NCBI GenBank assembly: GCA_031279415.1
Contig: JAITIP010000034.1
Span: forward strand, 1 to 34,165
Length of the DNA: 34,165 nt
DNA from: Candidatus Endomicrobium procryptotermitis
GTDB taxonomy: Bacteria > Elusimicrobiota > Endomicrobiia > Endomicrobiales > Endomicrobiaceae
Direction: 5' to 3'
A program made the position numbers and the translations under genes. Every line of letters starts with the position of its first letter. Position 1 is the stretch's first letter. Shown piece by piece: positions 15,557 to 34,165 of the stretch. Below the pieces are notes generated by a model. That model saw only the letters and a list, made by a program, of their open reading frames with translations, had not been told where the DNA came from and did not search any database.

Positions 15557-18500
15557 TTATGCTGCCGCTGCCACCGCTCTGGCATTCCTAAGCATTGGAC
15601 TCAATGCCACCGCAGCTTCACCTCCCCTCATCCCTGCCGATATCATCTTCAGTAACTCTTCATTCTTCTCAAATATATCAACAGGCTCTTTCTTCTCCAA
15701 CTCCATCTTTAGCTTCTCTATATCTATCTTAAACTTTCCCATTGTCATAATATTATCCTCTATACTCACTTCCTTAGCCATCGTAGCCATCGCTTCCGCT
15801 ACCACATACCTATTAACTTTTACCTCCCTCGGCATTAACCCTTGCAGCCTTTCCACTCCTTCCTTGTCTTTTACCTCATTTATCAGCCTCTTTACCTCTT
15901 TATCTTCCAACGACGCCATCAACATATCTCCCACCACTCTTATCAGCGCTATCTCTCTATCCCTTTCTTCCAATGTCAATTCCCCTTTTTGCTCAGAGGA
16001 TATCGCCTCTCCTATCTTATTTATCGCCGCATTCGCTACTCCTTCTTTATTATATTCCCCTTTTTCCTTTTCCAACCCTAGATACTTTTCCATCTCCTCT
16101 ACAGACGCAAACGCCACCACCGCTGCCAACACCATTATGTCTAACTCTTTACTACCACCCATATACCCCTGATCCTGCTCGGCATCCTTCATCTTTTCCC
16201 CTGCATTTACCATATCTCCTATTCTCGTATATCCATTTATAATCTCTTCAATCATATTTTTAACTACTACTTTAACATCATCATTGACTTTGCTTACAAC
16301 TACTTCTATTGCCTCTTTTATTATCCTTGACGATGGCGCAGATAATACTTCTTTTATTATTCCCTTATTCTCCTCCATCACTTCTTCTCTTGCCAACACT
16401 TTGTTAAATCCTTTATCTACCAATTCTTCAAGCGTTCCCGCCTTTTCTTCCCCAGATTCTCTATATATCACTTTCCCATCTTCACCTATCTCCGTTATCG
16501 CTATAACATGCCCTATTTCTTTCTCCTCTTTTACCAGCAGTATACCTTCTCCTATTTTTATTGCTTTGCCCTCTATCAACTCTTTATTTATTTCTCCCAA
16601 TACCAAATCTAATGTCTCCCTCGCCGCTCCTATCTTCACCAGCGGCACCTCTCCTTCTAACAACTCCTCTCCCGCCGCCAGCAGATTATCCTCTTTGTAT
16701 TTATAATCGTTAGCTGATAACCCTAGCATTTTCTGCGCAAGTTCCTCGCTTATTTTCACACCAGGTATTGCATTGAACGCCATTATCAGACAATTTTCCA
16801 TTATTCCTTTTTCTTCACTCGTTCCTTCCTCTGACGCCAACAAACCAGTAGTCTCCAGCACTACTTTCGCTGCCCCTTGCACCGCCGTTGCCGACTCGGG
16901 CAAGCTTTCTGCAAACGTTATCTCTTTTTCTATTCCTTCCTCTCTCTTTACCCCTGCGGTATACCCTTCAATTTTTTTGTTTTCCCCAGATTCATATATT
17001 CTTTTTATTTCCGTAACTTTTGCTTCTGCATCACTAAAATTATCATCTTTGTTGTATATTCTGTTAACCACGTCACTCATTCCAGCTTTCTGATAGAACT
17101 TGCTATCCTTTATAGTTGCTATAAGTGTATCAATAAACTCAGTATCCTCCAATACATTTAAACTTAATTCTACGGCAAAAATTTCATTTTTTAGTTTATC
17201 ATAGTTACTTTTAATTTTACTAATTGCTTCCTCACTTAACAATTCCTTTAATACCAACCTTCTATACTCTTCTGACGGTAATGATGTTATATCAGCGTAT
17301 GTCACCTTTTCTCCATTACTTTCTTTGTATTTTTTCACTAATTTATTAACGTATTCTTTAACTTTATCTTTTTTCGGCTTTGCAAGTTCGATTATTAACA
17401 AATTTTCATTAATTTTGCCAGCTTTTTTGGCGTCTTTATAATTCCTCTTAATATTTCTTATTTCTTCTTTACTAAAACCCAATTTTAATAAGCCATCATT
17501 ATTTATTACCCCATTATCAACCAAACTTTTGATGGGAACTTTGCTCTTGACATATGCTGTCAACTCTTCCACATTTTTTTTGCCCACACCTTCTTGTTTG
17601 ACATTATCCTCAAGTCCTCTGAATATCCCCGCAACTGTTTCTATCGTATGCCATTCTTTGCCTAATATTTGGCTCAAAGGCAAAGAATCTATCAATTCTT
17701 GGAATAATCCTTTTCCTCTGAGATCATATACTCTGCTGTTATACACTTCTTCGCTACTTCCATATTCTTCTATCAAATCTTTCATAAACTCATTAACGGC
17801 TTTATTAATATTATTTTTGTCTTCGCTGTATGCCTTGATATTTGCTTCTCTCTCTTTTGCATCCTTTGTATCCCTATATTTCTCAGCAGCCTCTTCATTA
17901 AGTTTTTTCTTAGCTTCTGCTTCAATCCCTTTCTTAGTCTTTTTGCCAAGTATTTCTTTTCTATTTGCCGCTGCTTTCTTCTTTTCTTTATCAGTCAACA
18001 GCAACTCTTTTAATTCCTTAGCGTTAAGCTCTTTCAGCGCTTTCATCTTTTCATCATCTTCCTCTTTTCTATTGGCTTCCTTCTGCAAGATCTTGTAATT
18101 TTTATCTATCAGTTTTATTTTCTTCTTTCCATATCCTAATGACTTCAACAATTTAACAGATACATTTTCTTTATCCAGTAAATTTCCAATAACAGATCTT
18201 TCTTTGGCAAATGACAGCACCTTATCTACAATATTTTCCTCTTTAATATCTTTCAAATTATTAAACATCTCCGAAACTTTATTTCCTGATATCATTTTAT
18301 GCAAAATTTCCAATCCTGCTTCTGTCTTATCCACTCTATTTTTATCAGATGATTTAAGCTCGCTCGCTATCTCAATCATATCATTTAATGTTAACTCGTT
18401 AAACAATACAATCTCTATCTTCTCTTCTGTAAACTTATACGCTCTATATGCATATTTGTAATCTTTGCGACCTTTATCCCCTTTCGACTGTTCAATGGTT

Positions 18501-21500
18501 TCAGCATATTTATTCAACGCACTATCTAGTTTCATCTCGACAGAATCCGACATTTCTTCTTTGTATAAATATTCTGCCGCTTTCTGTAGCTGTTTAGATT
18601 TCAGTCTGCCAAGACTGCCTATTATCTCCTTATTTATAGCTTCAATCGAATGATAGCCACTCAATCTTGAGGCTTGAGCGGACGGCACAATGTCAAGCTC
18701 TATCAAAAGAACGAATCCCTCTACAACTTTATCCTCACTGTTTAATATTTTAAGCGACAACTTGTTTACTTCTTCTTTTGTTACTCCCTTTTCTTCAGAC
18801 AGCTTTTCGACATTGGCATCTATTCTATTTTTATCCAATCCGACTTCATCCCAAATCTCTTTCGGCAGACCATAGATTAAATATTCACTCAGGCTCATCA
18901 TCTGCAATGTCTTCTCTATATATCCATCTACATCATCTTCTACAATACTGATAATTTTACGTGTATCGGATATTTTACTCAACATCAAATTAAGATTATT
19001 TCTTAATATGGATATGAGAGTATTCCTTATATCCTCATCAAACTTGTTTAATATCTTAGAAGAGTTAAGCCATTCTTTTATCTTACTGTTATTTGCTTCT
19101 ATTTTTTCTACATCTAATTTTTCCGATTCCAACACAGCCCTGACACCTTCATCTTTCAGATTTATATCGTCATACCTAAGTGTTTTTATGCCTGTATTGA
19201 TGTTATCTAGTATTTTTCTGACTTCATTATTTGTATCTGTTTGTGTCTTCCTTAAGTTTTCTAATTTTTGCTCTTTCGACTTGAGATCTTTTTTCAAAAT
19301 TTTTAATTGTTTTTTGAGAAGCCTCAGCGTCTCCTGCTGCGCTTCTTCTAATTCTTGCTCAGCTTTACCTTTCTTGTTTATAATATTATCCAACGAACTG
19401 GATAAGCGAATAGCTCTTTCTATCGACTTTTGAATTACAGGCTTGTTTTCAGTTTTATTTGTATCGGCTTGTTCAACAGTATCAGTTGCTAAAGTTTGAG
19501 CTTCTTTAAATAATTTTTCTATTTTATCCAACTCTTTATTTAATGCCAGTCTGAGCGAAGCTCTTTTATTATTCTCCTTATTTCTTTGAGCATTAATTTC
19601 GTTTACTTTTGTGTCTATTTCTTTTTTGTATAAGTCCTTAAATTTATTATCAAAATCTTTTGCTGTTTTTATATCTTTTACTTTTTGTGATATTTTCTTT
19701 TCTATTTTTATCTTTTCAAGCTGCCCAATTTTATTGTCGCTGATTTTTACCTCAGCTGTAACTGTTTTTTTCGCCTCCAGCATGATTTCTTTTTCAGCAG
19801 CTTTTTTTATATAGTTTTCCGCTGCTGTTCTAATGTTCTCTTCAATTATTTCCGACCCTCTACTATCCTCACCGCCAAGCTTTTCTAACTCTGCTAAATA
19901 CATCTCAATTTTCTTCTGTGCAGCTCTTGCTGTTTTACTATTGCGCTGTGCATCTTTTAGAGCTTTTTGGGCAGTGGAAATACCATCTTTCGCCTTCTTA
20001 TGTGACTCTGAATTATAATTTTTTATTTGGCTATCTAATTTATCTATTTGATTCTTATTCTCGCTCATGCCCTTTTCAGTCTGTTCAATATTCTTTTTAT
20101 TTTCTTCCAATTTTTCAATTGATATCTTTTCTAAAGTATTTTTTACATTCTTTTGTTCCATTTTTATTTTGTCTATAAATCTCTCGGCAAAACCTTTGTT
20201 TGCAAGTTCTGCAAAATTCATATTTTCCATAAATTTAGCGGCAACAATAGGAGCTACACCCTCCTTTTCCAAATATTCTCCCAACTTCTTGATATTTTCC
20301 AATACAATTTCATCGTCTATTTTGACGACTTCCAATGCTTTTTTAAATGCCGTTCCCTCTTCTTTAACGCCTGTTTCATCTGCAGCGACCTGCTGCCTCA
20401 TTTTGTCTTCAATGTCTCCCAGCCTTAATACTTTCCTTATCTCTTCTTTAATATTTTTAACATCAATCTTTCTTATATCTATCCTCCCACCGATTTCATA
20501 TCCTTCTTTTTCAATATCATCAACTGCAGTTATAATATTGTCCGCATCCTCAACGCTTTTTACAGTAGGATTGACTATAAACAAAATCAGTTTAAGATTC
20601 TCTTTCTCACTTCGTTTGCCTTTGACTTCTCCCGCTATATCTCTCGCTTCTCTCATTGAAATGAGTTTCTCATTCAAGAAATTCAGCTGAATTTCTTCCC
20701 GCATTTTAGGTTCCATTTTTGCTTTCAGCCTATTAAGCAGCAGATACATCTCTTTGTCCGATTTTAACCTTGGTATGTTTATTTTCCCTAAATTGGCAAA
20801 TATGTTAACCTTGCTTAACTTCTCAAGCATACCATTGTTCAACCTCTTCGGAATAAATCCCATCGACATAAAGCTTAACCCCATCATCAATCCCATAGGC
20901 AACGACACCCAAGGCAATAATGACATCAATAAACCGATTACAATTCCTGACCCCTTCAATGCCATTCTTGCCGCGCGTTCAGATGTTGTCTCTAACATTA
21001 TATTTTGTGCTTCCACGTAATCACCTCTGCGAACTGCCTCATCTAATTTCGAAAAATCATAATTGCGGCTAAACTTGACACCCTGCTTTTGGGCAGATTG
21101 ATTTGCGTTAAAGAGAGTTTGATAATTATCAATTAATTGCCTGCCACCAAATTTGATATTTCCTAAATCATCATATTGTAATGAAGCAAGTAAAGCTTCA
21201 GGAATATTCACATTGCCTTCTGTCAATACATTGCGTTTAGTTTTTGCGAAAGCAGTGTTTGCCTTATTAATTGCCCTTTGTGCCAATTTAAGTTTTATAT
21301 TATAGAACATATATTCAATTTTCCCTTCAAGCGTGTTGAATGTTCCTTTTTCATGTTCTATTCTTATCTCATTCTTCAAATTTTCATATTTAGAATTTAC
21401 AGATATGATTTCATCAACATCTTTTTTGATACTTTTGCCAAAATCAAATGTGCCTTTAGCATATTCCATTAACGCGTCTTTAAGATTTGTTACACTACTT

Positions 21501-24500
21501 ATGCGTACATCGTCTGATTTCTTAGTCTCTTCAGCAACTATTGCATTAACGTTAAAAATATCGTCAAGAGTAATTCCCGTAGACGCATTACCTGTAAGAA
21601 CTTCGACATTCTGCAATATCAATACTGTGTCCACCAGCTTCTCAAAATTATCGGCATCGTCTTTTTGCAGTTGAGTCTGAGGCAATAACGCATTAACAGC
21701 ATAAAGCTTCTGATCAGCATTTTCTGAATTAATGGCTTCCTGCAAAGCCAAGGCTTGGCCAAACACAACGGAGCCAGCTTCACTGATCTCTGTTCCCGCA
21801 TTATTAAATAATTTAAGCTTTTGCTCAGAAATACTTATTTTTTCTTCTAAACGTTTTATTTCCTCATTATTATTAGGTACTTCCTTAGCCTTAAACATAT
21901 CGGACACTGCCTCTCTTTTCTCATCTACGAATTTCTTAACAAGGGCATCCTCTGACATATTAAGCCTGTCGGCAAGAATTTGTATATTTTTGACGTAATC
22001 CGTTATGCTTGCTTTATTTGAGCTTTCTTTAACACTACCGACGCTTTGAGCCACGACTCTATCTTCCGCGTCTTGTCCTTCCTTTGAAAATACGCGTTCG
22101 TTAAACAATTTAATATAACCGTTTGCAGAATAAATATCGCCGTCTCTTTCTCTCATCAACCTTTCTTCAACAGCGCTTTTATTTGCGTTTATTGTGTTTT
22201 TATCCGAAATAAATGTAACATGGATATTATATTTATTTGTGCCTTTGCCAGTTTCAAGTTGAGAATGTCTTGTTCCACCGGCACGTCCGACAAATTGTTC
22301 TATAGCAGATTTATAACTGAGATGCGGATCTATAGCCACAAGTTCGAGGAAATGAACGTTATCTTTGAAGTTAATATCAACACCTCTGCCGATTTGCTCA
22401 TAAGTCCCTATAAAAAATCTTCTGCTGCCTTCATTCTTGGCAAGAGTATTCCCATCGGCTTTTGACATAGTAGTGTCAAACCAAGCTATTTCTTTTTCGC
22501 TTTCTTTATCTATAAAACCCGTAAGTTCGCCAAGCTTTTTAAACATATCTATTTTTGTCTGAGAAGGCATTCCGACAATTAGACCGGAATTCTTATATAA
22601 CATTGTTGTAAATATCGGATTAAAAACCTCTAATACCGTATTGGCAGCTTTAAGAGTAGTTCCTTTAAACGAACCGTCTTTACCTTTATCTATATTTATC
22701 TCCACACTTTCCATTTTCATATCTGAAGCAGGAGTATAATTTACTGCAGCATATCCCATTGCTTTTCTTGCAGAAGCAGAATAAGTGCCGGTCACGCCTA
22801 TAAAACCTGAAGCTCTATTTAAAGCATCTATTATGGCAATTGAAGAATTCTCTCTTGAACCGACTTTTGTTATTCCTGCTATTTCCTCTCCTCTGTCAAG
22901 CATTCTTATTTCCTGAATTTGTTTAAAGCCCGCCTGAGGGACAAGGTCTGCCAATGCTCCGCCTGAAACAAGTTGAACTTTATAGTCTCCCTGCGCATCA
23001 AAACCCATTCCGAAATTTTGTCCTTCAACCCAGGTCATGTCTGACATAAGCATATTGTTGATAATTTCGCTTAACTTAAACCCGGAAGCAAAAATATTAG
23101 TGGTATTAATCAGCCCGAGCTTATTTCCAATATCTTTGCTTATCTTTCTAACGCCTTGTTCAAAAATTTCCATTGCCTTTTCATTATTTCTCAAAACAAC
23201 ATCCGTTCTGTTTTTGATTTCAACGTCTAATATCTTTCCGGAAAGCTCAAGCAAATTAATAGTTTTATTGTTTATCGGCGAATTTTGCAGCTGAGAAAGC
23301 GCATTTCTTACTTCACGAATTCTTGCTGCATCTATTGTTAATGTATTAGTTTTACCGTCTCTAATATATGTTTCGGCTTTCCCCTCCACGCTTTGAAGCA
23401 TATCTGACAATGACTTATGCAAAGCTTCTATTTGAGGCTTGGTAGCTTCAATAGCTTTTGCAATAACAGCTGCGTCAGCTTTTGTAAATCCGGATTTTTT
23501 AGTTCTTAAAATATCCAATGCAGGTTTTAAATTAGCCTGCACATCAAGCGACGATTTAAGTGTTCCGTCATTCTTGGCAATTTCCTCAACCAGCAACTCT
23601 CTTTGAGTCGTCCATTCTTTTTCATAAACTCCCTTCTCTCCGAAAGATTTAAAAAATTCATAAAATGCAGATGTTGATTCTTCAAAACCGCCCGTATCTC
23701 CCTGCATAACTTTAGACATATAAACGGCAGTATCGGCTTCATCTCCGAGAATAATACCTACTTTGCCTCCAAATATCTGCTTTGCTCCAGCTTTACTTTC
23801 CGCTACGTTTATAAAAGCAAAATCAGTATATGTCATGAAGTAAGATGCTTTTGTCCCGTATTTTGCTACCGCAGCGGCATAACTGTTGCTGTCAACTTTT
23901 TCAAATATATATCTGTCCCCATACAAAGCCCTAATTCTTCCCATATCGTTATTTACAGTAGTGTGAATGTCGGCAAGAAAAACAGAATAATTCCCATATA
24001 TGTCGTTTGCCAATTTAACGGCAGGAAATATCGCCGAAAGAACAGAAGTTTTTCCTTCACCGGTTCCAAGTATTTCAATTTGTCTGAATGCATTTTTTAT
24101 GGAGGATCCATCGCCCGATCTCATGCTTTCCGTCATTGAGCTAGTAATACCTCTCATAGCTTCATACTGCGCCTTAGAGAATGTGAACCCGCCTGATAAA
24201 CTTGATGCCAACTGCAATTGAATCGCTTTTTCAGACAATTCGCCGATGAGACCTTTATCTTCTTTATTTTTTCCGACAAATTCTTCAAATTTCTGTCTTT
24301 CTGCATCCGTAAGTTTTTTTATTCCTTGTTCTTTTATTTTGTTTGCAACTTTAGACATCTCATTGATTTTTTCAATCGTTGTTATCTTATTAGAAACTTC
24401 TTTGAATTGATACATAGCCATCATATCAAAGTTAAAAATAACTTCTCTGTCTTTCCCATTAATTTTTATTGTTGCTTTCTGTTGAAAGGAAGCATAATCA

Positions 24501-27500
24501 TTTGATTTTGCTTTCCACTCTTTTACAGAATCATCATTTCTAAATTCGTTTTTTTCGACAAAATTTTTAATGATATCATTCCTTGCTTTATCAAATGACT
24601 TCGCGTTTTCACCGACAATTTCTCCCAGCTTAATATCATGATTACTGATAAGCTTATCCAAAAGCAGCCAGCGAATGTCCTTATATTCATCAGCAACCTC
24701 TGGTTTTGTAACTTCCAAAAGTAATTCATCCAGATTTTGCATTTTCTCTGACTCTGAATATATCCTATCCGCCTTAATACGATTACTTTCATTAACACTC
24801 TTGTTTACCGACGTTAATTCTTCAGACACTTTCTTTATGCTTTGGACTTCTCTCTCAGAATAACGGCTACCTTCTTTTAAAATTTCTCCTACAAATTTTC
24901 CGGCCTGTTCTACAAAAACTTTTTCAAAAGCGCCGACCCTTGACGCCCATCCATCAAGAGACTTTAGCATTCCTTTTGCAGTTTCTACGGAAACTCCATC
25001 AAAAAGTTTTACTAAATTAAGCCCTTCTTCTCCTTGTTGAAGTCCTTTTTCATACTTTGAGGCTATATTTTCAGCTATTTTTTCATGTAATCCAGATAAA
25101 TATATAGTATTAAGTATCTTACCTTCTATCACAACATTTTTTCTAAGAATTAAATTAGCTTTGTAAAATTCTACATTAGCAGAACTTATCCTTTTGCTTA
25201 CATCGGTTAATTTTATGCGTTCAGCTTCTAATCGGACTATTCTCTTTTGAGTGGTGGCTTCATTTGCCGTTTTATTGCCAATTCCTCTTAATTCCTTTTG
25301 TGCATCAACAATTTGTCTATCTAATTCTCTCACTCTACTCAAAGTTTTTACATCATTAAATGCCCTGCGTTCAGCTTCTAATTGGCTTATTTTCCTTTGA
25401 GCCGCTTCATATGCCGTTTTATTGCCAATTCCTCTTAATTCCTTTTGTGCATCAGCAATTTGTCTATCTAATTCTCTCACTCTATTTTGAGCGTCAGACT
25501 TTAAAGAAGGTGAATTCATTATGTCATTTATTCTATTCTCTGACATTATTTCGCTTGCTACAGCTTCAATGCCTTTATCTGTAAGTGCTCTGTTTTTCAA
25601 GTCAGATATTTCACGTTGAATTTGATTGCGGGCTTCTTTCGTTTCAGTTTTTTGAAGCGCCGCGCTCTTCTCGGCAATTTGGTTTTGAACTTCTGCGTTA
25701 AAGTTCAATATCTCAACGCCTGCGCCGGCATTCTTTTTTGCTGTTCTAATAGCGACATAATCTTTAAACGTCATTGTTTCTGCTCTTGAAGGCACAAGCA
25801 GCATTGCCATATTGCTCAGCATATATTCAAATAAACCGCCCATTTCTCCATTTGTCAATTGATAATTTGCCTGCATGCCAAGCATAGAATCAAGACTGTG
25901 TCCAGCTTTTCCCAATGCCCATTCTGCCAAAGCAAACTGCTGCATTGTAAGAGTTGTGTTAAGCGCCGGCTTTTCTAATAAATATACAAGCCCTTTACCT
26001 AATACATTAAGAGGCTTATTTACCCATCTAATAGCAAAATTTGCTTCGGCCATAGATTTAGCACCCGCAGAGAAAAGATTCCCCTGCGTCATTTTATCTA
26101 TAAATTTGCTATTTTGAAAAAACGCCTGTCCCGGCATTGCCATTGCAAAGAAAGGAGATACGATTGCACCCATGCCAAAGCCGCTTGATACATGAGTCCA
26201 AGCCATGCGGGTCTCTTCCTCTGTAAAGTTGTTCCAATATATTCCGGCATATTCGTGGACTATATTCTCGCCAAAATTTTTAAAACTAAAATTTCCGCTA
26301 TAAACATCTTTCCATGTTTGCAATGAAAATATATTGTTGACAAGAGGCATAGCTAAAGCGTTAAATTTTGCAAGATGCACGCCGGATTCCAAAGCCTGCA
26401 GCATTACAGTTCTGGGCTGTGTGGCTATTTTTCCAAGCGTTCCGCCGATATTATGCCGCGCCCAATAAGTAACCGCTCCGGGAGTATTTGCAAATCTCTT
26501 TGTTAAACGGCTTGTCGCCCTGCTAACAACCGCACTGCCGCCGCCCAATATAAGACCGAACCCAAATCCCATCAAATAATCTTGAGTTATGCTGCCAAAC
26601 GACAAACCTGCAAAAGCGTTGTTGCCTTGCGATAGATTTCCGGAAATCGTATTTGCAATTTTCATTGTAGAAAAAGCGACTCCAAACATAACAGCATTGT
26701 CGCCGTGATAGGAAAGTTTATTAAAGAACCCCTTTGTTCCGGCTAATTCCTGAGTATACTTTCCGACTTGTTTTACAATCGCTTCTTTTTCCATTTGCAC
26801 CTGAACTTGAGCCTGTTCTTGCTGAGCTGAAGATTGATTCTCCCCTATTTTATTTCTTGCCGAAATTCCTGCAAAAACAATGGCCATTGCAAGATTAAAC
26901 GCGCCTCCCCACATATTTCCTTCGCTAAACTGGTATTTCGCAGCTTGAACTGAACGGGTTATTAACACCACATCTAAAGCTTTAGAGCCGATAAAAACAG
27001 CTTTACTCCAAGTTCCTGCTGTCTTGCTTGCCAAATTAGTTACTGTTCCTCCTAAAGCAACCCCGACCAGTGCTCCCATGCCGGCATACCAAAGAGCATC
27101 TCCCCAATCTATAGCTCCCCAATCCTTTCCATTATTAAAATATTGATAACCAATATTCGATCCAAATCCTATAGTTGCGCCCATCAGAGCTCTAACACCG
27201 ACAGTTTTAGCAACATTTTTCATAACTTCTCTTGTTAAAGCTTTTGAGACGCTATTTCCTATTCCTATTGCAACTCCTTTAGCGGAGGCTTTAAAGCCTT
27301 CTTTTGCAATCCCTACGGCAGCAGCCCTTGCGGCGCCCATAGCAGCGCCGCCTAGTTTTCCAAGTCCGAAACCGGACAATAAAATCATACCCATATTAAA
27401 AGCAAAACCGCCCCAATTTCCCGAATATGCACAATCAACGGCATTTTCAGTTAAGCTTATAGAGCCGACAGCCGCCCAAGTCGCCAAAGCAACTGCCATG

Positions 27501-30500
27501 GCGGCAGTTATTACATTGGCCGCCGTTATAGCACCAGCCGCAATAGCTGCAAAGGCCGCTAAAGCACCGCCGAATGTAACAATTGTCAAAACCGCCACAA
27601 AAATAACAACGGCAACTGTCGCTACTATTTTTATAAATCCTTTTCGAGCATCTGTGGCTTCTACTGTAGTTAAGCCCGCAAAGTTTTTAAGCATTGTTCC
27701 TGATGATAATAAGTCTGCGGCTATATTGTTTACTGCAATGTTCATAATATTGCTTGTTTCCATCGATCTATACACCGAGGTATTGCCTATGCCGCTGTTA
27801 GCAAAATATCCGCCGTTTTTATCCAGTTCTATTCCTTTTCCTGAGGTAGAGATTCCACCAATGGTGGCGGCATTAGAAACGGAATAATACGTAGTAAATA
27901 ATATGCCTCCAGGAACGCCTTTCTGCGTATATTGCGTGGTATTGCATCCGGTTAATGTCTGCCCTGCATATTCTCCGGCAAGATAAGTTCTTGTGAAATT
28001 ATAACTGGTTTCTCTTCCCCATGCGTCGGCGCTGAAATTTGTGTTAGTGTATTGATAGCTCTGCTGCGCGTTAAGAGTTACGTCTGTTCCTTTATATCCT
28101 TTGGCAGCAATGACTTCATCAAACTTCTTACCGCTGGCAGCAATGACTTCATCAAGCTTCACACCGTTTAATAATTCCGCATTTTTGAAATCCCATCTTC
28201 TTGTCTCTCCTGAAACTTTTTTGCCGTTTTCACCCAAAATAGGTTTTCCATCAACAGTATATTTTGCCGCTGTTGTCGATAAGCTTGAAATAATATAGAA
28301 CTGCCCCTTTTCATAATCTGCCGTTTTACCATTAAATTCAGTTTTGCTTGTCCTTTCTCTGTCTTCATTGCCTTCACCAGTCACCGTTATATTGAATTCT
28401 CTGATGCTGCCTTCTTCTGTCTTGAGAAGTTCGCCATAAGCGCCTAAACGGTAAGTGTTTGTCGTATATCTGTCTGTAGTTTCCATCTCATTATATTTTC
28501 CAGTATAGTTCCCTTGATCATCTTTAGAATATTCATTATTATGAGTCTTATTTCCTGTAGTAATCGCAGTTGTTTTACCTATGTAATCATAAGTGATTCT
28601 TTCATATGTCGAAGAAACAGCCTGTGGTCTTACACTTCCATCGGAATCGGTATAGTTAAACACTTCATTATTTATCTCTCTTCCAGCTCTTATTATGCCG
28701 TCTCCACCTATTGTGCTGCTCTTTCCCGTTTTAGGATCAACTATTTCAATTTCAATCCCATGTCCTGTAGTAATATAATTGCCGCTATCTCTAAACTGTT
28801 CTACAAGTTTATTATCCAGATAAACGTCACGGCTAAAAGCGCCTTCCGACACTGTGGTGGCAACAAGCCTCTTGTCTGTTGTATTCGTAACCGTATCCGC
28901 ATAAGTATAATTTATAGTTTTACCGGGATCTCTTAGGACAGTTCTTATATTGCCTGAAACTGTTGTGTGTGTCCAGCCGTCTTTAGCTTCCTGTATAAGT
29001 CTGCCTACATCTTCAGAATCTTTAGCTTCTCTAACTTCAGCTGATTCAAAAGTTCTGGTTGTTTTGGAATCTCCATATCTGTCAGTAAAGATTTCTTCCA
29101 TTATTCCGCGTTCCGTGGTAGCAGCCGCACCTTCAAAGAAAAGTCCATTCGATTGATTTGTTTTGGTATTTCTGGAAAATACGCTTTCAAATTCTAAGTT
29201 CCTTACGGTACGGCTATCGCCATTACTGTAATTTACGGTAGTTATACCTGTAATATTTGTTGTAGTCTTCTTCAAGATATTTTCGTTTTTATCAAGTACC
29301 ATTACAACCTGAGGATGCCCTGAAACAGAAGTTTCTGAAACTACCGTGCCGACGCTCTTAACTTCACCGTTGATATTAAGAACGGCTTCACTCATTTGAC
29401 CGTAATAGCTGGTCGTGATTGTCGAATAGCGTTTATCATTGTAATAATTAATCTTATTACCGGTAGCTTTACCATCAATATATTCGTCACCATAAGACTT
29501 TTCATAGAGAGTATCAGTTCTTGACTTTGAAGAATGAAGAACACCACTATCCCCAATGGATGAACTATATGTTTTTCCATTCTGAGAATATATGGCGGCA
29601 AATATTTCGTCTACTTTAGACATGGTTTTATCGCCTGTTTGCACGGCTTTTCCGGATTGGTCATAGTCATAAGTAATTTCTCTTACATTGCTAAATATTT
29701 GATATGACTCGACTTTTCCCCATCCTGCTTTTTTATCTTCTCCTGAAACCTTAAATGTAATCAGCGGTTTATGTGAAGGTGAAACATCAAGCTTGTAGTC
29801 ATCAATGTCATCATCAGAGTATATGTTTGTAATAGTTCCGCCGTGCAAGACTGTAGAACTCGCTCTTTCCCAATTGCCAGTATCTCTATTAAGTTTCCAT
29901 TGCGTCTGCATATAATTGTTTGGATTATATTGCAGCATTTTACCATCTTCGCTCCATTTGATGTCTGTCATTGCTGCAGCAACCAGCAGATTGCCATCTT
30001 TGTCCTTCAGCGTTCCCGCCCCTATTTCTGTGTAAGAAAAACGCTTGCCATCTATGCCATAAGAAGCGGAAAAACCTGCAATATTTGTGAATTCATTTAT
30101 GGCATTGAGATCGAGAGTATCATTACCGGTAACCCTCCAGTTGTCTACATTTGCTCTTATGCTTTCTACTTTTCTGCCTCCTAAGATATCTAGGGTTGTT
30201 GAAGTTCTTTCTATAAGGTTAGTCTGACCGTCAATCATTTTCATTGTATTAACAGAGATTGAACCGTTTAAAGAGTGCGATATTGAAATTTCCGCAGAGG
30301 GAGTTTTAATAAGGCGGCTATCCTCTGCTTTTTTTTCTGAAATCATAGACAGTTTTATATCTCCACCTGATTCCTGCAGCCTTAACACATTCGTCACACC
30401 AGTTAATCTCCCTAATGGAAAATGGAAATAGAGAGCATTGTCTTCTTCTCTGCCAGAAAAAACTCTTTTGCTGTCAAGATCAATGAAATAATACTCGTTC

Positions 30501-33500
30501 TCCCAATGTGTATCTCTAATAACAATCGCATTGTCTAAAGATATTCCCCCAAAATGACCGACTCCATTTAAGATCGTAGCGTTTTCCATTCCTATATTGA
30601 ATGCAAGATCACTATCAACGGACTTATAAAAAGAAGGCAGAGCTGATGCTATGCTTTGTCCGTTGCCATCTTGTACGCGGACACTCTGAATAACACCATT
30701 CCTGTCAACATAAGCTGTTCCTGATGCAGCGTTAAAAGAAGCCGCTATGCTTCCGTCATTATTATATTTGTTAGACGTGTATCCTGTAATATTTGCATTT
30801 CCGTTTCTTAATGCACCACTATAGTAATCAAAGATTTTATATGCTTCATCATTCATATTACCATGAAATTCTATATTATTAGGTCTTTCTTTGACATTGG
30901 CAGAAATTATTGAAGTGTCAGTTACAATGCCTATGGAGTTAGTAACAGTCTGAAATTGTGTGACTGTATTTATTTTTCTACTTCCACCTGTCTTGTCGTT
31001 ATCAGTAACAAATGTAATGGATGAATAACGATTTGAACCGTCTGCAACTGAAGAATTAATAATTATATTGCTGCTTTTAAAATCGGCATCTCTTCCAATG
31101 CCATAATTATATAAATTTCCTCTGAGGTCAACGTTATTATCCATTTCTATTGTGATAGTAGTATCATTCCCATTACCTGCAATAGCCTCCTCAAAGCTGG
31201 AATATGTTGTATAATTAGCTGTGCTATAATAACTATCCAAAACCCAACCTTCTTTCTTATCTCTGGCAATCTCAAGTTTTGCAACCCCATTTTTAGAAAA
31301 GAAATATTCCGTTAATTTATAGGGGTTTGCAGTATTATTAAAACCCTGCAGCACCGTTACTTTTCCATTGCCAGCTGTTGCTATTACAGGGAAGACTGTA
31401 AGAGAAGGATTACCACCTGCACTTAGTCCTCCTCCTATGGGTTTAACATTCACAGAATACCACTGCCCGTTAGAATAAAAATTTCCTCTTTTATCATCTG
31501 CTTCAACTGGTGTCATTTTACTTCTATCAATTCTTGCTACTGCAGTATAGTTTCCATTTTCATAGAAATATCCCTGCGCTTGATTTTCACCCATGTTTAT
31601 ACTTTGAAGCGCCTGATCGGTATATTTCCTGTCTTCAACCATGTTTCTTTGAAGAGCCAGCGCCCTGACATCTGCGTCATCATCAAGATTATAAGTACGC
31701 GATCTGCCATCGAGTGTTACCATTATCCCCCTTTCAGTAAATATGACATTACCCTCTCCAAAAACACTTTGCATTCCTGCAGTATCTGATACTATGCTCC
31801 TAAGTTCATGCAGTTCGGCGTATTTATAAATAGTTCCATAATCAATAATTTCACCTTTTGCTATAGCAGCTTCGATAGGTTTCTTTGATTCGTCGCTTTC
31901 AGGTGGGTCGACATAAGCGACAGTATTATCCGATCCCGACCTAAAAACCATACAGTCACTGCTACTCTCATTAATTGCAATACTTTCAATTCCGAAACTA
32001 ACTATTCCGCCCGCTTTTATGTTTATGCCATTAGGCAACATAATGTCTTTATCCGCAGTCATAGACACTCTTTTTCCTTTATTCTCTCTTGAACCTAAAA
32101 GATTTTCAAGCATAGTGTTCATATTTGAAGAAATTGTACCCCTTATATCTGAATACGAAAGAGCATCCAAGTCGGCACGGGTTAAACTTTGTCCCTGCGA
32201 TTCAAACGCTTGGGCAATTAAATCTTTCGTTCTTGCAGCATCTGTATATGAATAGCTTGCGTCTTCAGAAACGCCCTCCCATCCACCTGCATTCACACTG
32301 TATTGGTGAACTCCCTTCGTTACGACTTCACCGCTGCTTGTCTGGAAAACGGAACCTTCCCATGCTTTCGCGCCTTCTCCTATCATTTGCGCTTTTCCGT
32401 TTATAAACGTAATTATGGAATTTTGGCCTGATATAGTCATCTGCCCTTGACTATCTTTTCCATATTGGCCCTGAGTATATATGGGAATATTCGGCATACT
32501 TCCGGCTTTACCTGCTACTGAGTCAGAATCTGCAGCGCTTTCAGGTTTCTGTTCAGAACCTGCAGCACTCTCAGGTTCCGGCTTTGCCGGTTTTTCGGAA
32601 GTGTCAAGCGGATTTACATATACAGCCCCATTGGTATTCACAAAATCAACCGCTACCATAGGGGCATCTCCTCCATAATATACCCTGAAGTCTATTTTAC
32701 CTGCTATGTTCCCATTTAATGTGGCTGCTATGCTTCCGACAGGACTACCTTTTACATCTTCCATAGTCGTTGCCACAACTGAAAAATCAGAAGTATCAAT
32801 ATTTACATTCAGCTTAATAGGCGTTGAAGGATCAACAGGTTTTATTTGACTGCCTTCAAGCAATTTACCTGTTTTAACTTCAATTAATTCCCGAATGAAA
32901 ATGTTTCCACCTTCTACTCTCATTCCTTTCATCGCTTCAGGAGTCAAACTTTTAATATCTATTCCAAGAAAAGGTGCGGCAGCTTGAAGTGACTTTGTTA
33001 CTTCATTTCTTTGTCTAGAAATGAGTCTATCTCTCAGTGTGGCTGGAAGTAATGAAATTAGCGCACTTTCTTGCACGAGGGAAAAATTTGCTACATCTGC
33101 TCGTAATCTCGCTTGAACTTGCTCTCTTTTCGCATTGACCGCAGTATTATATCCATCCTTGCCGGCCTGAGTAGTAACGTCATATGTCGTTCTGTCCATC
33201 GTTATTGACGTCACTGTTTTTCCATCAGAACCATATTTTATAACCCGACCATCAGAAGTTGCTATTGTGCTTAATTTCCCTGTTCTTTTGTCAAGTGTAT
33301 GCTTGCTTCCGTCAGCATCAGTATAGGATACATTGTATACACTATGGCTGAAAATAAGATTGCCATTTCCATCTCTGGCTATTACTTTATAGCCATTGTT
33401 TGTTGTAGTCTTTGTTGTAGTCTTTGTTGTAGTCTTATAGTAGTTTGCTATATAACTTCCCTTGTCCGCTCCTTTCGGCGTACTTATCGAGTAAACAGAG

Positions 33501-34165
33501 CTAAATCCATTGTTGTCCAATTTAGCGTATAATGACGCTCCCATCTTTACCCTTGCCTCTTTCCCTTCCGAAATAAATATACGCTGACCGTCTATTATAT
33601 CCGCTATCATCACTGAACCCTTAGTCACTTTACCTAATCCAAACACATCACTGCCTGTCTCAAAAGTACTATCTTTGGAAAATATGTTATCCCTTGTAAA
33701 TATTCTTTCAAGCGCATCATCTCTTGAAAAAACTACCCCCGATACTTTTAACGTTCCATTGACACTCCATCCATCAGGGTTTTGACTGTCTTTTCCTCCA
33801 TAAGCAATTGTTTTTCCCTTAAATACCACTTTTTCATCGCTTCCTCCAGAAGAACTGCCACCCTTTGTATTTCCTACTCGCACATCAGTTGAAGTAAGTT
33901 CTGCACTGATTATGTCAAAGGAATTATCTCTGATATTAATCTCTGCGCTGACCATTTCGACCTTTCCTTCTCCATGCTCGAATATAAAATCACTTCTTCC
34001 TCCAAAATTTGCAGCAAAATTCCCTGCGGCATTAACTGAAAGTATTAAGGTTCCTGCCGCAAATATTTTATCCTCTCCTGCTATCTTTTTTGTAATATCA
34101 ACTGAATTCGTGAAGACAGGTTTTACTCCGTAATAATTCAACAGTCCATTGCTCAGATTTATCTG
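15557..34165 (-). CDS. Giant multidomain protein with divergent SecA-like ATPase (5' partial, over 6,200 residues)
   Basis: One open frame runs from the right edge to TAA at 15557-15559. The TTG at 34139-34141 is internal: eight more sense codons (QINLSNGL) reach the edge, so the start is outside. Residue numbers here count from that TTG. 1-2120: Thr/Asn/Gly/Tyr-rich beta-type surface region with some YD-like stretches. 2165-2785: Gly/Ala-rich hydrophobic segments. 2790-3280: coiled coil with a duplicated 40-residue unit. 3290-4000: SecA-like DEAD ATPase (Walker A GTGEGKT 3359-3365, DEAD 3467-3470, TGT 3784-3786, GRAGGTR 3952-3958). 4391-4431: hydrophobic hairpin. 4440-5660: Lys/Glu-rich coiled coil. 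5755-5920: possible papain/C39-like peptidase (C5784, H5878). I count only four Cys (730, 2066, 2237, 5784). No family assigned as a whole; a surface or secretion-linked role is inferred. Confidence 0.85.
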   Translation of the reverse strand, partial: QINLSNGLLNYYGVKPVFTNSVDITKKIAGEDKIFAAGTLILSVNAAGNFAANFGGRSDFIFEHGEGKVEMVSAEINIRDNSFDIISAELTSTDVRVGNTKGGSSSGGSDEKVVFKGKTIAYGGKDSQNPDGWSVNGTLKVSGVVFSRDDALERIFTRDNIFSKDSTFETGSDVFGLGKVTKGSVMIADIIDGQRIFISEGKEARVKMGASLYAKLDNNGFSSVYSISTPKGADKGSYIANYYKTTTKTTTKTTTNNGYKVIARDGNGNLIFSHSVYNVSYTDADGSKHTLDKRTGKLSTIATSDGRVIKYGSDGKTVTSITMDRTTYDVTTQAGKDGYNTAVNAKREQVQARLRADVANFSLVQESALISLLPATLRDRLISRQRNEVTKSLQAAAPFLGIDIKSLTPEAMKGMRVEGGNIFIRELIEVKTGKLLEGSQIKPVDPSTPIKLNVNIDTSDFSVVATTMEDVKGSPVGSIAATLNGNIAGKIDFRVYYGGDAPMVAVDFVNTNGAVYVNPLDTSEKPAKPEPESAAGSEQKPESAADSDSVAGKAGSMPNIPIYTQGQYGKDSQGQMTISGQNSIITFINGKAQMIGEGAKAWEGSVFQTSSGEVVTKGVHQYSVNAGGWEGVSEDASYSYTDAARTKDLIAQAFESQGQSLTRADLDALSYSDIRGTISSNMNTMLENLLGSRENKGKRVSMTADKDIMLPNGINIKAGGIVSFGIESIAINESSSDCMVFRSGSDNTVAYVDPPESDESKKPIEAAIAKGEIIDYGTIYKYAELHELRSIVSDTAGMQSVFGEGNVIFTERGIMVTLDGRSRTYNLDDDADVRALALQRNMVEDRKYTDQALQSINMGENQAQGYFYENGNYTAVARIDRSKMTPVEADDKRGNFYSNGQWYSVNVKPIGGGLSAGGNPSLTVFPVIATAGNGKVTVLQGFNNTANPYKLTEYFFSKNGVAKLEIARDKKEGWVLDSYYSTANYTTYSSFEEAIAGNGNDTTITIEMDNNVDLRGNLYNYGIGRDADFKSSNIIINSSVADGSNRYSSITFVTDNDKTGGSRKINTVTQFQTVTNSIGIVTDTSIISANVKERPNNIEFHGNMNDEAYKIFDYYSGALRNGNANITGYTSNKYNNDGSIAASFNAASGTAYVDRNGVIQSVRVQDGNGQSIASALPSFYKSVDSDLAFNIGMENATILNGVGHFGGISLDNAIVIRDTHWENEYYFIDLDSKRVFSGREEDNALYFHFPLGRLTGVTNVLRLQESGGDIKLSMISEKKAEDSRLIKTPSAEISISHSLNGSISVNTMKMIDGQTNLIERTSTTLDILGGRKVESIRANVDNWRVTGNDTLDLNAINEFTNIAGFSASYGIDGKRFSYTEIGAGTLKDKDGNLLVAAAMTDIKWSEDGKMLQYNPNNYMQTQWKLNRDTGNWERASSTVLHGGTITNIYSDDDIDDYKLDVSPSHKPLITFKVSGEDKKAGWGKVESYQIFSNVREITYDYDQSGKAVQTGDKTMSKVDEIFAAIYSQNGKTYSSSIGDSGVLHSSKSRTDTLYEKSYGDEYIDGKATGNKINYYNDKRYSTITTSYYGQMSEAVLNINGEVKSVGTVVSETSVSGHPQVVMVLDKNENILKKTTTNITGITTVNYSNGDSRTVRNLEFESVFSRNTKTNQSNGLFFEGAAATTERGIMEEIFTDRYGDSKTTRTFESAEVREAKDSEDVGRLIQEAKDGWTHTTVSGNIRTVLRDPGKTINYTYADTVTNTTDKRLVATTVSEGAFSRDVYLDNKLVEQFRDSGNYITTGHGIEIEIVDPKTGKSSTIGGDGIIRAGREINNEVFNYTDSDGSVRPQAVSSTYERITYDYIGKTTAITTGNKTHNNEYSKDDQGNYTGKYNEMETTDRYTTNTYRLGAYGELLKTEEGSIREFNITVTGEGNEDRERTSKTEFNGKTADYEKGQFYIISSLSTTAAKYTVDGKPILGENGKKVSGETRRWDFKNAELLNGVKLDEVIAASGKKFDEVIAAKGYKGTDVTLNAQQSYQYTNTNFSADAWGRETSYNFTRTYLAGEYAGQTLTGCNTTQYTQKGVPGGILFTTYYSVSNAATIGGISTSGKGIELDKNGGYFANSGIGNTSVYRSMETSNIMNIAVNNIAADLLSSGTMLKNFAGLTTVEATDARKGFIKIVATVAVVIFVAVLTIVTFGGALAAFAAIAAGAITAANVITAAMAVALATWAAVGSISLTENAVDCAYSGNWGGFAFNMGMILLSGFGLGKLGGAAMGAARAAAVGIAKEGFKASAKGVAIGIGNSVSKALTREVMKNVAKTVGVRALMGATIGFGSNIGYQYFNNGKDWGAIDWGDALWYAGMGALVGVALGGTVTNLASKTAGTWSKAVFIGSKALDVVLITRSVQAAKYQFSEGNMWGGAFNLAMAIVFAGISARNKIGENQSSAQQEQAQVQVQMEKEAIVKQVGKYTQELAGTKGFFNKLSYHGDNAVMFGVAFSTMKIANTISGNLSQGNNAFAGLSFGSITQDYLMGFGFGLILGGGSAVVSRATSRLTKRFANTPGAVTYWARHNIGGTLGKIATQPRTVMLQALESGVHLAKFNALAMPLVNNIFSLQTWKDVYSGNFSFKNFGENIVHEYAGIYWNNFTEEETRMAWTHVSSGFGMGAIVSPFFAMAMPGQAFFQNSKFIDKMTQGNLFSAGAKSMAEANFAIRWVNKPLNVLGKGLVYLLEKPALNTTLTMQQFALAEWALGKAGHSLDSMLGMQANYQLTNGEMGGLFEYMLSNMAMLLVPSRAETMTFKDYVAIRTAKKNAGAGVEILNFNAEVQNQIAEKSAALQKTETKEARNQIQREISDLKNRALTDKGIEAVASEIMSENRINDIMNSPSLKSDAQNRVRELDRQIADAQKELRGIGNKTAYEAAQRKISQLEAERRAFNDVKTLSRVRELDRQIVDAQKELRGIGNKTANEATTQKRIVRLEAERIKLTDVSKRISSANVEFYKANLILRKNVVIEGKILNTIYLSGLHEKIAENIASKYEKGLQQGEEGLNLVKLFDGVSVETAKGMLKSLDGWASRVGAFEKVFVEQAGKFVGEILKEGSRYSEREVQSIKKVSEELTSVNKSVNESNRIKADRIYSESEKMQNLDELLLEVTKPEVADEYKDIRWLLLDKLISNHDIKLGEIVGENAKSFDKARNDIIKNFVEKNEFRNDDSVKEWKAKSNDYASFQQKATIKINGKDREVIFNFDMMAMYQFKEVSNKITTIEKINEMSKVANKIKEQGIKKLTDAERQKFEEFVGKNKEDKGLIGELSEKAIQLQLASSLSGGFTFSKAQYEAMRGITSSMTESMRSGDGSSIKNAFRQIEILGTGEGKTSVLSAIFPAVKLANDIYGNYSVFLADIHTTVNNDMGRIRALYGDRYIFEKVDSNSYAAAVAKYGTKASYFMTYTDFAFINVAESKAGAKQIFGGKVGIILGDEADTAVYMSKVMQGDTGGFEESTSAFYEFFKSFGEKGVYEKEWTTQRELLVEEIAKNDGTLKSSLDVQANLKPALDILRTKKSGFTKADAAVIAKAIEATKPQIEALHKSLSDMLQSVEGKAETYIRDGKTNTLTIDAARIREVRNALSQLQNSPINNKTINLLELSGKILDVEIKNRTDVVLRNNEKAMEIFEQGVRKISKDIGNKLGLINTTNIFASGFKLSEIINNMLMSDMTWVEGQNFGMGFDAQGDYKVQLVSGGALADLVPQAGFKQIQEIRMLDRGEEIAGITKVGSRENSSIAIIDALNRASGFIGVTGTYSASARKAMGYAAVNYTPASDMKMESVEINIDKGKDGSFKGTTLKAANTVLEVFNPIFTTMLYKNSGLIVGMPSQTKIDMFKKLGELTGFIDKESEKEIAWFDTTMSKADGNTLAKNEGSRRFFIGTYEQIGRGVDINFKDNVHFLELVAIDPHLSYKSAIEQFVGRAGGTRHSQLETGKGTNKYNIHVTFISDKNTINANKSAVEERLMRERDGDIYSANGYIKLFNERVFSKEGQDAEDRVVAQSVGSVKESSNKASITDYVKNIQILADRLNMSEDALVKKFVDEKREAVSDMFKAKEVPNNNEEIKRLEEKISISEQKLKLFNNAGTEISEAGSVVFGQALALQEAINSENADQKLYAVNALLPQTQLQKDDADNFEKLVDTVLILQNVEVLTGNASTGITLDDIFNVNAIVAEETKKSDDVRISSVTNLKDALMEYAKGTFDFGKSIKKDVDEIISVNSKYENLKNEIRIEHEKGTFNTLEGKIEYMFYNIKLKLAQRAINKANTAFAKTKRNVLTEGNVNIPEALLASLQYDDLGNIKFGGRQLIDNYQTLFNANQSAQKQGVKFSRNYDFSKLDEAVRRGDYVEAQNIMLETTSERAARMALKGSGIVIGLLMSLLPWVSLPMGLMMGLSFMSMGFIPKRLNNGMLEKLSKVNIFANLGKINIPRLKSDKEMYLLLNRLKAKMEPKMREEIQLNFLNEKLISMREARDIAGEVKGKRSEKENLKLILFIVNPTVKSVEDADNIITAVDDIEKEGYEIGGRIDIRKIDVKNIKEEIRKVLRLGDIEDKMRQQVAADETGVKEEGTAFKKALEVVKIDDEIVLENIKKLGEYLEKEGVAPIVAAKFMENMNFAELANKGFAERFIDKIKMEQKNVKNTLEKISIEKLEENKKNIEQTEKGMSENKNQIDKLDSQIKNYNSESHKKAKDGISTAQKALKDAQRNSKTARAAQKKIEMYLAELEKLGGEDSRGSEIIEENIRTAAENYIKKAAEKEIMLEAKKTVTAEVKISDNKIGQLEKIKIEKKISQKVKDIKTAKDFDNKFKDLYKKEIDTKVNEINAQRNKENNKRASLRLALNKELDKIEKLFKEAQTLATDTVEQADTNKTENKPVIQKSIERAIRLSSSLDNIINKKGKAEQELEEAQQETLRLLKKQLKILKKDLKSKEQKLENLRKTQTDTNNEVRKILDNINTGIKTLRYDDINLKDEGVRAVLESEKLDVEKIEANNSKIKEWLNSSKILNKFDEDIRNTLISILRNNLNLMLSKISDTRKIISIVEDDVDGYIEKTLQMMSLSEYLIYGLPKEIWDEVGLDKNRIDANVEKLSEEKGVTKEEVNKLSLKILNSEDKVVEGFVLLIELDIVPSAQASRLSGYHSIEAINKEIIGSLGRLKSKQLQKAAEYLYKEEMSDSVEMKLDSALNKYAETIEQSKGDKGRKDYKYAYRAYKFTEEKIEIVLFNELTLNDMIEIASELKSSDKNRVDKTEAGLEILHKMISGNKVSEMFNNLKDIKEENIVDKVLSFAKERSVIGNLLDKENVSVKLLKSLGYGKKKIKLIDKNYKILQKEANRKEEDDEKMKALKELNAKELKELLLTDKEKKKAAANRKEILGKKTKKGIEAEAKKKLNEEAAEKYRDTKDAKEREANIKAYSEDKNNINKAVNEFMKDLIEEYGSSEEVYNSRVYDLRGKGLFQELIDSLPLSQILGKEWHTIETVAGIFRGLEDNVKQEGVGKKNVEELTAYVKSKVPIKSLVDNGVINNDGLLKLGFSKEEIRNIKRNYKDAKKAGKINENLLIIELAKPKKDKVKEYVNKLVKKYKESNGEKVTYADITSLPSEEYRRLVLKELLSEEAISKIKSNYDKLKNEIFAVELSLNVLEDTEFIDTLIATIKDSKFYQKAGMSDVVNRIYNKDDNFSDAEAKVTEIKRIYESGENKKIEGYTAGVKREEGIEKEITFAESLPESATAVQGAAKVVLETTGLLASEEGTSEEKGIMENCLIMAFNAIPGVKISEELAQKMLGLSANDYKYKEDNLLAAGEELLEGEVPLVKIGAARETLDLVLGEINKELIEGKAIKIGEGILLVKEEKEIGHVIAITEIGEDGKVIYRESGEEKAGTLEELVDKGFNKVLAREEVMEENKGIIKEVLSAPSSRIIKEAIEVVVSKVNDDVKVVVKNMIEEIINGYTRIGDMVNAGEKMKDAEQDQGYMGGSKELDIMVLAAVVAFASVEEMEKYLGLEKEKGEYNKEGVANAAINKIGEAISSEQKGELTLEERDREIALIRVVGDMLMASLEDKEVKRLINEVKDKEGVERLQGLMPREVKVNRYVVAEAMATMAKEVSIEDNIMTMGKFKIDIEKLKMELEKKEPVDIFEKNEELLKMISAGMRGGEAAVALSPMLRNARAVAAAA
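16382..16879 (-). other. Region of giant ORF resembling a papain/C39-like cysteine peptidase
   Basis: Residues about 5755-5920 contain IMENCLIMAFNAIPG with C5784 on a hydrophobic helix, then after 94 residues a strand pair EIGHVIAITEIGEDGKVIY with H5878, followed by RESG with E5895. Order and spacing (Cys helix, His strand, acidic residue after the next strand) match C39/papain-like folds. The Gln normally before the Cys is not seen, and the acid is Glu rather than Asp, so this is a fold-level suggestion only. Confidence 0.4.
20849..20971 (-). other. Hydrophobic hairpin in giant ORF
   Basis: Residues about 4391-4431 hold two hydrophobic stretches, GIVIGLLMSLLPWVSLP and MGLMMGLSFMSMGFIP, joined by a short Pro turn and bounded by charged residues (Arg/Lys on both sides). 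It looks like a membrane helical hairpin placed between the SecA-like part and the long coiled coil. Confidence 0.55.
22142..24274 (-). other. SecA-like DEAD ATPase domain within giant ORF
   Basis: Residues about 3290-4000 carry the ordered motor motifs of SecA: ILGTGEGKTSV (P-loop, K3364), a YGTKASYFMTYTDFAF stretch comparable to the SecA NBD1 block before motif II, GDEADTAV (motif II), VTGTYSAS (motif III), GTYEQIGRGVDI (motif V, to 3923) and QFVGRAGGTR (motif VI). About 310 residues separate motif II from III, longer than the preprotein-crosslinking insertion of true SecA. The second motif VI arginine is Gly. Confidence 0.8.
25216..25484 (-). repeat. Tandem duplication encoding a coiled-coil unit
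   Basis: Two nearly identical segments of about 120 bases (25216-25337 and 25366-25484) lie about 147-150 bases apart. They encode RVRELDRQI(A/V)DAQKEL followed by RGIGNKTA and an L-E-A-E-R ending. One copy has an extra codon, so the period is 49-50 residues. High DNA identity indicates a recent in-frame duplication. Confidence 0.9.
25787..27649 (-). other. Hydrophobic, Gly/Ala-rich membrane-type region of giant ORF
   Basis: Residues about 2165-2785 begin with FIKIVATVAVVIFVAVLTIV and a long Ala-rich stretch to about 2235, followed by several weaker hydrophobic, Gly-zipper-like segments (e.g. MGMILLSGFGLGKLGGAAMG, YLMGFGFGLILGGGSAVV). Several could span or insert into a membrane. Confidence 0.7.
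28102..28166 (-). repeat. Tandem 33-base repeat in giant ORF
   Basis: Two adjacent 33-base copies (28102-28134, 28135-28166) encode LDEVIAASGKK and FDEVIAAKGYK. The first 20 or so bases are identical. It lies just before the hydrophobic region. Confidence 0.8.
32529..32578 (-). repeat. Repeated Pro/Glu/Ser/Ala linker
   Basis: Two copies of a 20-base block 30 bases apart encode PESAAGSEQK and PESAADSDS within a Pro/Glu/Ala/Ser-rich segment (about residues 515-545). It looks like a flexible linker between two beta-type regions. Confidence 0.65.
33399..33434 (-). repeat. 12-base microsatellite encoding Thr-Thr-Thr-Lys
   Basis: Three exact copies of a 12-base unit (TTTGTTGTAGTC on the plus strand) run without a gap and encode TTTK repeats near residues 237-248. 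The unit is a multiple of three, so copy-number change would keep the frame and only alter length. Confidence 0.9.

Follow-up and report, generated by a model that had tools for sequence, protein, structure and literature searches.

Giant Endomicrobiaceae proteins with an exchangeable SecA-like ATPase, possible self-powered secretion or injection machines

The window analysed here is a stretch of 34,165 bp, the complete contig JAITIP010000034.1 (G000:C34) of the 2.0-Mb, 46-contig genome of Candidatus Endomicrobium procryptotermitis, an uncultured bacterium of gut type. Its minus strand carries a single uninterrupted open reading frame (ORF) of more than 18.6 kb (15557..34165; 6,202 codons plus stop), whose product has a SecA-like ATPase between a hydrophobic hairpin and a C-terminal Cys/His module. 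The 5′ end is lost at the contig end; because the window is the whole contig, the gene is truncated by assembly and not by the choice of window. The chain runs from a beta-rich region through the hairpin, a Gly/Ala-rich domain, helices, the SecA-type ATPase, further helices and a Cys/His candidate to an AVAAAA tail. This bears out in detail the order given by a sequence-only reading (beta region, hydrophobic region, coiled coils, SecA-like motor, coiled coil, possible peptidase), which had also described the frame as single and its start as outside the window. Together with its homologs, the protein may belong to a set of self-powered single-chain secretion or injection machines, that combine an exported giant passenger with a hairpin in the membrane, a SecA-type motor open to exchange and a protease for processing, and whose modules have been swapped across Endomicrobiaceae; we regard this as a real possibility, though one that falls well short of probable.

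A divergent ATPase with a SecA-like predicted fold

The motor occupies residues 3310-4100 (21866..24238; all features of the giant gene are on the minus strand, and residues are counted over the visible chain). It holds a Walker A motif (motif I, TGEGKT, residues 3368-3373, 24047..24064), a Walker B motif (motif II, DEAD, residues 3475-3478, 23732..23743) and a motif VI of QFVGRAGGT (residues 3957-3965, 22271..22297). Between motifs II and III, an insert of about 310 residues (3479-3789, 22799..23731) lies at the place of the preprotein-crosslinking domain of SecA. Eight motor homologs have in common TG[EA]GK[TS], an MTYTD-like stretch, DEAD/DEVD, GxTGTYS, a GTYEQxGRGxDI-like stretch and QxxGRxxGxR, and the ATPase motifs are kept in all A1/A2 members.

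An AlphaFold2 model of the motor, made with ten sequences, has a predicted local distance difference test score (pLDDT) of 73 and a predicted template modelling score (pTM) of 0.73. When this model is compared with the PDB by Foldseek, SecA takes ranks 1-19 (E 1e-10), followed by MDA5, DinG and XPD among others. The best TM-score, 0.43/0.45, is to SecA bound to SecY, and such modest values (up to 0.45) are expected of a divergent relative. The spacing between motifs II and III, a comparison of the insert by position, is about 316 residues in the window, 182-234 in the other motor types that allow it to be measured and 183 in SecA of the same phylum; it is about 30 residues in DEAD-box helicases, and XPD and DinG also carry an insert there. 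Directly after the DEVH of the G022:C14 motor there is a match to the Pfam family SecA_PP_bind (E 0.0024, below cut-off), and hhalign pairs the MTYTD stretch of the motor with the TNNE-GFDYLRDN stretch of SecA.

Some of these comparisons also touch on a different reading, in which the motor is a superfamily 2 nucleic-acid helicase that takes DNA or RNA as its substrate, whether within the cell or beyond it. Pfam ResIII, not SecA_DEAD, matches four of the eight motor members (best E 1.4e-7), other motor subfamilies give weak DEAD/ResIII and Helicase_C matches, and both the place of MDA5, DinG and XPD next after SecA and the XPD and DinG inserts are in keeping with a helicase. We consider this reading quite unlikely, given the hold of SecA on the first 19 ranks, the hhalign pairing, the SecA_PP_bind hint in one motor subfamily and the look of the remaining chain, which appears exported and membrane-bound. 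The motor is thus SecA-like by modelled fold and insert position, yet outside the SecA family by the sequence criterion.

The same genome also carries a separate, normal SecA of 876 residues. With SecA (PF07517, PF01043) the window motor shares the core motifs TGEGKT, TGT and GRGxDI, the long insert between motifs II and III and the best fold match, but it is highly divergent, falls below the family cut-off and sits inside a chain of more than 6,200 residues. SecA stands alone at about 880 residues with a C-terminal zinc-binding CPCGSG..CC tail, whereas the giant lacks this tail and has almost no Cys. Among viral proteins, the motor model comes closest in fold to the DUF3638 proteins of giant viruses (E 1.6e-9), but these show no sequence match to the motor and occur in an unrelated context.

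A constant slot with exchangeable motors

A search of 41 genomes for A[V/I]AAAA followed by a stop gave 12 matches. Eleven of them, the window included, are ORF ends with a homologous C-terminal module (one, G024:C85, is a 50-residue contig-end fragment), and the twelfth is a 13-residue chance frame. Ten giants can be read through the middle (the window, G001:C47, G022:C4, G013:C35, G015:C6, G002:C126, G010:C7, G013:C37, G022:C14 and G015:C4), and in all ten a superfamily 2/SecA-type ATPase lies between the hairpin and the C-terminal module. At least four mutually unalignable kinds fill this slot, with TGEGKT/DEAD, AGGGKS/DEAD, VGFGK[TS]/DEVH and, in G002:C126, a degenerate AGGKS/DEIH. Since the slot always holds an ATPase while its subfamilies cannot be aligned, the giants form a class of predicted exported proteins with an exchangeable built-in motor. 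G002:C126, from the window's genus, has residues 1034-2172 and 5655-6194 in common with the window and a different middle; this combination of a shared beta block and C-terminal module with another middle indicates module exchange.

Two Ruminimicrobiellum-type homologs (G022:C4 and G331:C26) allow selection to be estimated. The ratio of nonsynonymous to synonymous divergence (dN/dS) is 0.28 for the whole ORF and 0.067 for the motor, the regional values resting on few changes where synonymous divergence (dS) is near 0.01; the hairpin and Gly/Ala-rich domain have zero amino-acid changes. In the beta region dS reaches about 0.33, against about 0.01 in the hairpin, motor and C-terminus, and identity between the two genomes is mostly 80-91% in the SecA region and 88-94% in the sequence adjoining the giant gene. 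Seen against this background divergence, the jump in dS suggests that the membrane-motor part was recently recombined with a different surface region. Alternatively, cross-contamination of two rumen metagenome bins may have produced it.

A further reading takes the protein for a giant adhesin whose ATPase survives as a relic or serves as a structural spacer. Giant surface adhesins are common, the motor sequences are strongly diverged, and the Walker A motif of one subfamily is degenerate (AGGKS in G002:C126). However, ten A2 members show little or no variation in the catalytic motifs, the motor has the low dN/dS given above and the ATPase is retained in every giant of the class examined, which makes such an adhesin very improbable.

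The chain outside the motor

Residues 1-2175 (27641..34165) form the beta-rich region, which is rich in G, S, T, N and Q (fraction 0.39; charged residues 0.23) and in aromatic residues; a conserved block in it, residues 1011-2175, is common to G001:C47, G002:C126 and G031:C13. The hairpin that follows (residues 2176-2240, 27446..27640) is strongly hydrophobic, with an uncharged loop and a basic N-flank, and a hydrophobic segment is present at this position in 13 of the 13 homologous giants examined. Between hairpin and motor lie the conserved, moderately hydrophobic Gly/Ala-rich domain (residues 2315-2806, 25748..27223) and a charged linker, helical by its composition (residues 2807-3309, 24239..25747). 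Beyond the motor, a second hydrophobic segment (residues 4402-4430, 20876..20962) leads into a long helical, highly charged region (residues 4431-5745, 16931..20875). The composition shifts across the hairpin, from exported-like before it to charged and cytosol-like after it.

How the chain begins can be seen in homologs. In those with an intact 5′ end, G031:C13 and G031:C8, the start comprises a long basic region together with a signal peptide whose last residues are ..NIVNLPVYA, and G010:C7 is complete, with 7,712 residues from the same kind of signal peptide through to AVAAAA. Pfam and NCBIfam searches with 700-residue pieces of the visible 6,202 residues gave nothing above cut-off, with no toxin, RHS, RTX or CPD family and no match to the RTX repeats or InsP6-dependent cysteine protease domain of MARTX toxins; a profile search against PDB sequences gave chance coiled-coil matches only.

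The C-terminal module (residues 5746-6202, 15560..16930) consists of a papain-like Cys/His candidate (C5792, H5886) and helices, and ends in the conserved AVAAAA (15560..15577) immediately before the stop. Both C5792 and H5886 are invariant in six aligned homologs and recognisable in further giants. Profile matches are weak (Peptidase_C39, E 0.007 in one member; CHAP, 0.13), and the AlphaFold2 model is of low confidence (pLDDT 50); with it, Foldseek lists the PCAT1 peptidase second (E 0.16, not significant), and CHAP and papain-like toxin structures are also among the high-probability, non-significant matches. The possible peptidase of the sequence-only reading has an invariant Cys/His pair in the right order and context, and the weak profile and fold matches hint at a papain-like fold. 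The pattern is suggestive, and makes a papain-like peptidase a likely but putative assignment. PCAT1-type transporters likewise join a papain-like C39 peptidase to a translocating ATPase and membrane segments, but their ATPase is of the ATP-binding cassette type, whereas here a SecA-type ATPase and a giant passenger are in one chain.

A continuous coding sequence truncated by the assembly

The ORF listing and translation place the stop codon, TAA, at 15557-15559 and show no further stop up to the right edge. At the base composition of the ORF, chance would leave a frame of this length open with a probability of about 10^-222, and 32-86 stops per 620 codons interrupt the two remaining forward frames. 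Codon usage correlates with that of neighbouring housekeeping genes (r 0.68-0.89), the giant frame being the best along its whole length. With homologs in independent assemblies and the dN/dS of 0.28 in the homolog pair, these sequence criteria identify the ORF as a real coding sequence.

An assembly artefact or chimeric join is an explanation to which we give almost no weight. The ORF does stop at a contig edge without a linking k-mer: the contig end on its side shares none with any other contig end, many of which do share 119-mers. However, the codon signal is continuous, and homologs from rumen, termite and waste assemblies have the same order of parts; since the architecture recurs in independently assembled genomes, a chimeric join, which the sequence-only reading had named as a possible refutation, is not the explanation. 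At the opposite, left end of the contig, the first 119 bases (1-119) also occur at the left end of C35, which marks a branch in the assembly graph.

The missing N-terminus is estimated from shared-block alignments at about 2.2k residues relative to G010:C7 and about 3.6k relative to G031:C13. The open contig ends C7, C27, C38 and C46, examined as the missing 5′ part, show no resemblance to known N-termini, and two homology searches of the same genome found no homolog of the expected N-terminus, so the start is unseen. Downstream of the giant gene, a strong, symmetrical intrinsic terminator (15492-15530) is just 3′ of the stop, followed by housekeeping genes (an RsmD-type methyltransferase and genes of the arginine and lysine pathways). 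The methyltransferase gene is separated from the giant gene by a 138-residue ORF (14864-15280, minus strand), which we take to resemble the YjbQ/UPF0047 family.

A motor for its own chain or delivery into another cell

The sequence itself shows the part order, the complete ATPase motifs, the SecA-like predicted fold with its insert at the expected position, the invariant Cys/His pair, the constant tail and purifying selection; membrane orientation, a polypeptide substrate, self-translocation, peptidase activity and a surface location are inferences. In the mechanism that we favour, although we put its chances at somewhat less than even, the giant is a protein of the cell surface that contains its own SecA-type translocation motor, and this motor acts on the giant's chain from the cytosolic side. 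The N-terminus would be exported through Sec, by the signal peptide known from complete homologs, and the beta-rich part would form a surface or extracellular stalk. The hairpin and Gly/Ala-rich domain would anchor the chain in the inner membrane, leaving both the SecA-type motor and the Cys/His domain at the C-terminus in the producer's cytosol with ATP; as ATP is needed, the motor should act in a cytosol. There it may grip a polypeptide, which would most likely be the passenger of the same chain, and drive or adjust its passage across the membrane, and the Cys/His domain would probably cleave the chain.

The main rival, a delivery mechanism dependent on contact, would use the same parts differently: the beta part would bind a target cell, the hairpin and Gly/Ala domain would enter its membrane, and the ATPase and Cys/His domain would act in its cytosol, much as with other giant proteins that are delivered into cells. 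An exported N-terminus and hydrophobic segment ahead of an enzymatic half, a middle swappable between constant flanks (G002:C126 compared with the window), a Cys/His domain close to the C-terminus and recent recombination with a diverged beta region are all compatible with delivery, and the even number of hydrophobic hairpins combined with an exported layout favours it. Omnitrophota giant ORFs have, in addition, been linked to predation or symbiosis (PMC10066038). Set against this, the middle is always the same kind of ATPase and not one of varied effectors, no toxin, RHS, RTX or CPD family is matched, and no conserved immunity-like gene lies downstream, where the housekeeping genes differ between homologs. 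Because the ATPase is always present and there is no immunity gene, self-translocation is favoured over delivery, which we judge possible but on balance unlikely. That the ATPase slot stays constant in kind while its sequence diverges further supports a built-in motor.

Several observations weigh against a motor for the giant's own chain. Two hydrophobic hairpins amount to an even number of crossings and would place the C-terminal half on the same side as the N-terminal half. The first hairpin also has a basic N-flank, which conflicts with export of its N-side, and the part of the chain that follows it presumably resembles pre-toxin segments of polymorphic toxins. Self-export through a single SecYEG gives no obvious need for four motor subfamilies. 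At the SecA family cut-off (PF07517, SecA_DEAD) the window motor has no match, one of the eight members giving E 0.0031, and when the motor profile is compared with 13 SecA sequences from the phylum, the alignment is weak (probability 40%) and covers the first RecA half only. Both the motor as a polypeptide translocase and the giant as an expressed protein are predictions from the gene sequence.

Distribution in Elusimicrobiota

In one scan of named GTDB genomes, homologs occur only in Endomicrobiaceae and rumen Elusimicrobia, phylum Elusimicrobiota: Ca. Ruminimicrobiellum ovillum, Ca. Ruminimicrobiellum bubulum, Ca. Endomicrobium embiratermitis, Ca. Praeruminimicrobium purgamenti and Endomicrobia bacterium isolate Th196P4bin33 (G001, of the window's genus). 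These hosts agree with the expectation of a lineage related to Omnitrophota, and an attribution of the window genome to Omnitrophota itself is rejected. A motor profile finds strong matches in 9 of 341 phylum genomes, all of family f1, and weak ones in 4 more. The C-terminal module is present in 30 of 336 phylum genomes, 29 of them in the window's family. Genus g8, with small, endosymbiont-like genomes (0.2-1.4 Mb) that make up 35 of the 70 family genomes surveyed, has no A1-type motor; the idea that it lost the giant class was dropped, as the C-terminal module persists in seven g8 genomes. In three g8 contigs (G301:C35, G029:C8 and G021:C32) the N-terminal module of a giant gene is broken by in-frame stops, perhaps in decaying genes. 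No relatives were found on plasmids or IMG/VR viral contigs, so nothing points to a mobile or phage origin.

Outside this class, SecA_DEAD is matched above cut-off in further very long ORFs, of 1.5-11.3k residues, from the order, and each genome bearing them has one normal SecA besides. A second giant ORF of the window's genome, G000:C13:9977-42940 (+), is complete at 10,988 residues. It carries a motif II of the SecA type (DEVDSALIQGGMTPLIISG) near residue 1073, and at its N-terminus a 'QDLHAH' module that recurs in large ORFs on five other contigs. Another giant class, seen in G001:C26 and G004:C40, has a GTGAGKT/DEAH SecA-type ATPase and then many hydrophobic segments, with a HEIRH stretch ahead of the ATPase in G001:C26. 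At G000:C46:17761-23554 (+), an open 1,931-residue ORF at a contig end carries Chlamydia polymorphic-membrane-protein repeats.

Relation to known systems and implications

In the accessory Sec system, SecA2 works with giant serine-rich adhesins. It resembles the present case in dedicating a SecA-type motor to a giant surface passenger, but has motor and passenger in separate genes and not in one chain. MARTX and polymorphic toxins (PMC3482391) share an exported N-terminal part, a hydrophobic segment, an exchangeable internal module and a cysteine-peptidase candidate, but no RTX, RHS, CPD or toxin family is matched in the visible part of the window giant. In contrast to polymorphic toxins and contact-dependent inhibition systems, its C-terminus is conserved and not variable, the module is always an ATPase and no immunity gene is adjacent.

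Giant ORFs are already known in Omnitrophota and Elusimicrobia (PMC10066038, PMC12057145). Those of Omnitrophota exceed 20 kb and have many transmembrane helices (PMC10066038); here 18.6 kb are visible of a 5′-truncated gene, to which homology suggests another 2.2-3.6k residues. The membrane segments that the sequence-only reading ascribed to such ORFs agree with that paper; the divergent SecA domains that it ascribed to them, mainly in Omnitrophota, are nowhere mentioned there. The window giant resembles these ORFs (PMC10066038) as a very long single ORF with transmembrane segments and few recognisable domains from a host-associated lineage, but belongs to Elusimicrobiota and has a defined motor, a Cys/His module and a constant C-terminal tail. 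We found no description of SecA-type motors in such giant ORFs in the literature searched, and priority is uncertain.

Giant genes are known from phyla related to the Planctomycetes-Verrucomicrobia-Chlamydiae group, but almost no domain has been recognised in them. The core described here (hairpin, SecA-type motor, Cys/His domain and AVAAAA tail) provides a searchable signature and domains small enough to express and assay, and with such single domains the function of giant genes becomes testable. If the motor moves polypeptide, these proteins would be translocation motors fused to their own passengers, a kind of secretion machine undescribed in the literature searched.
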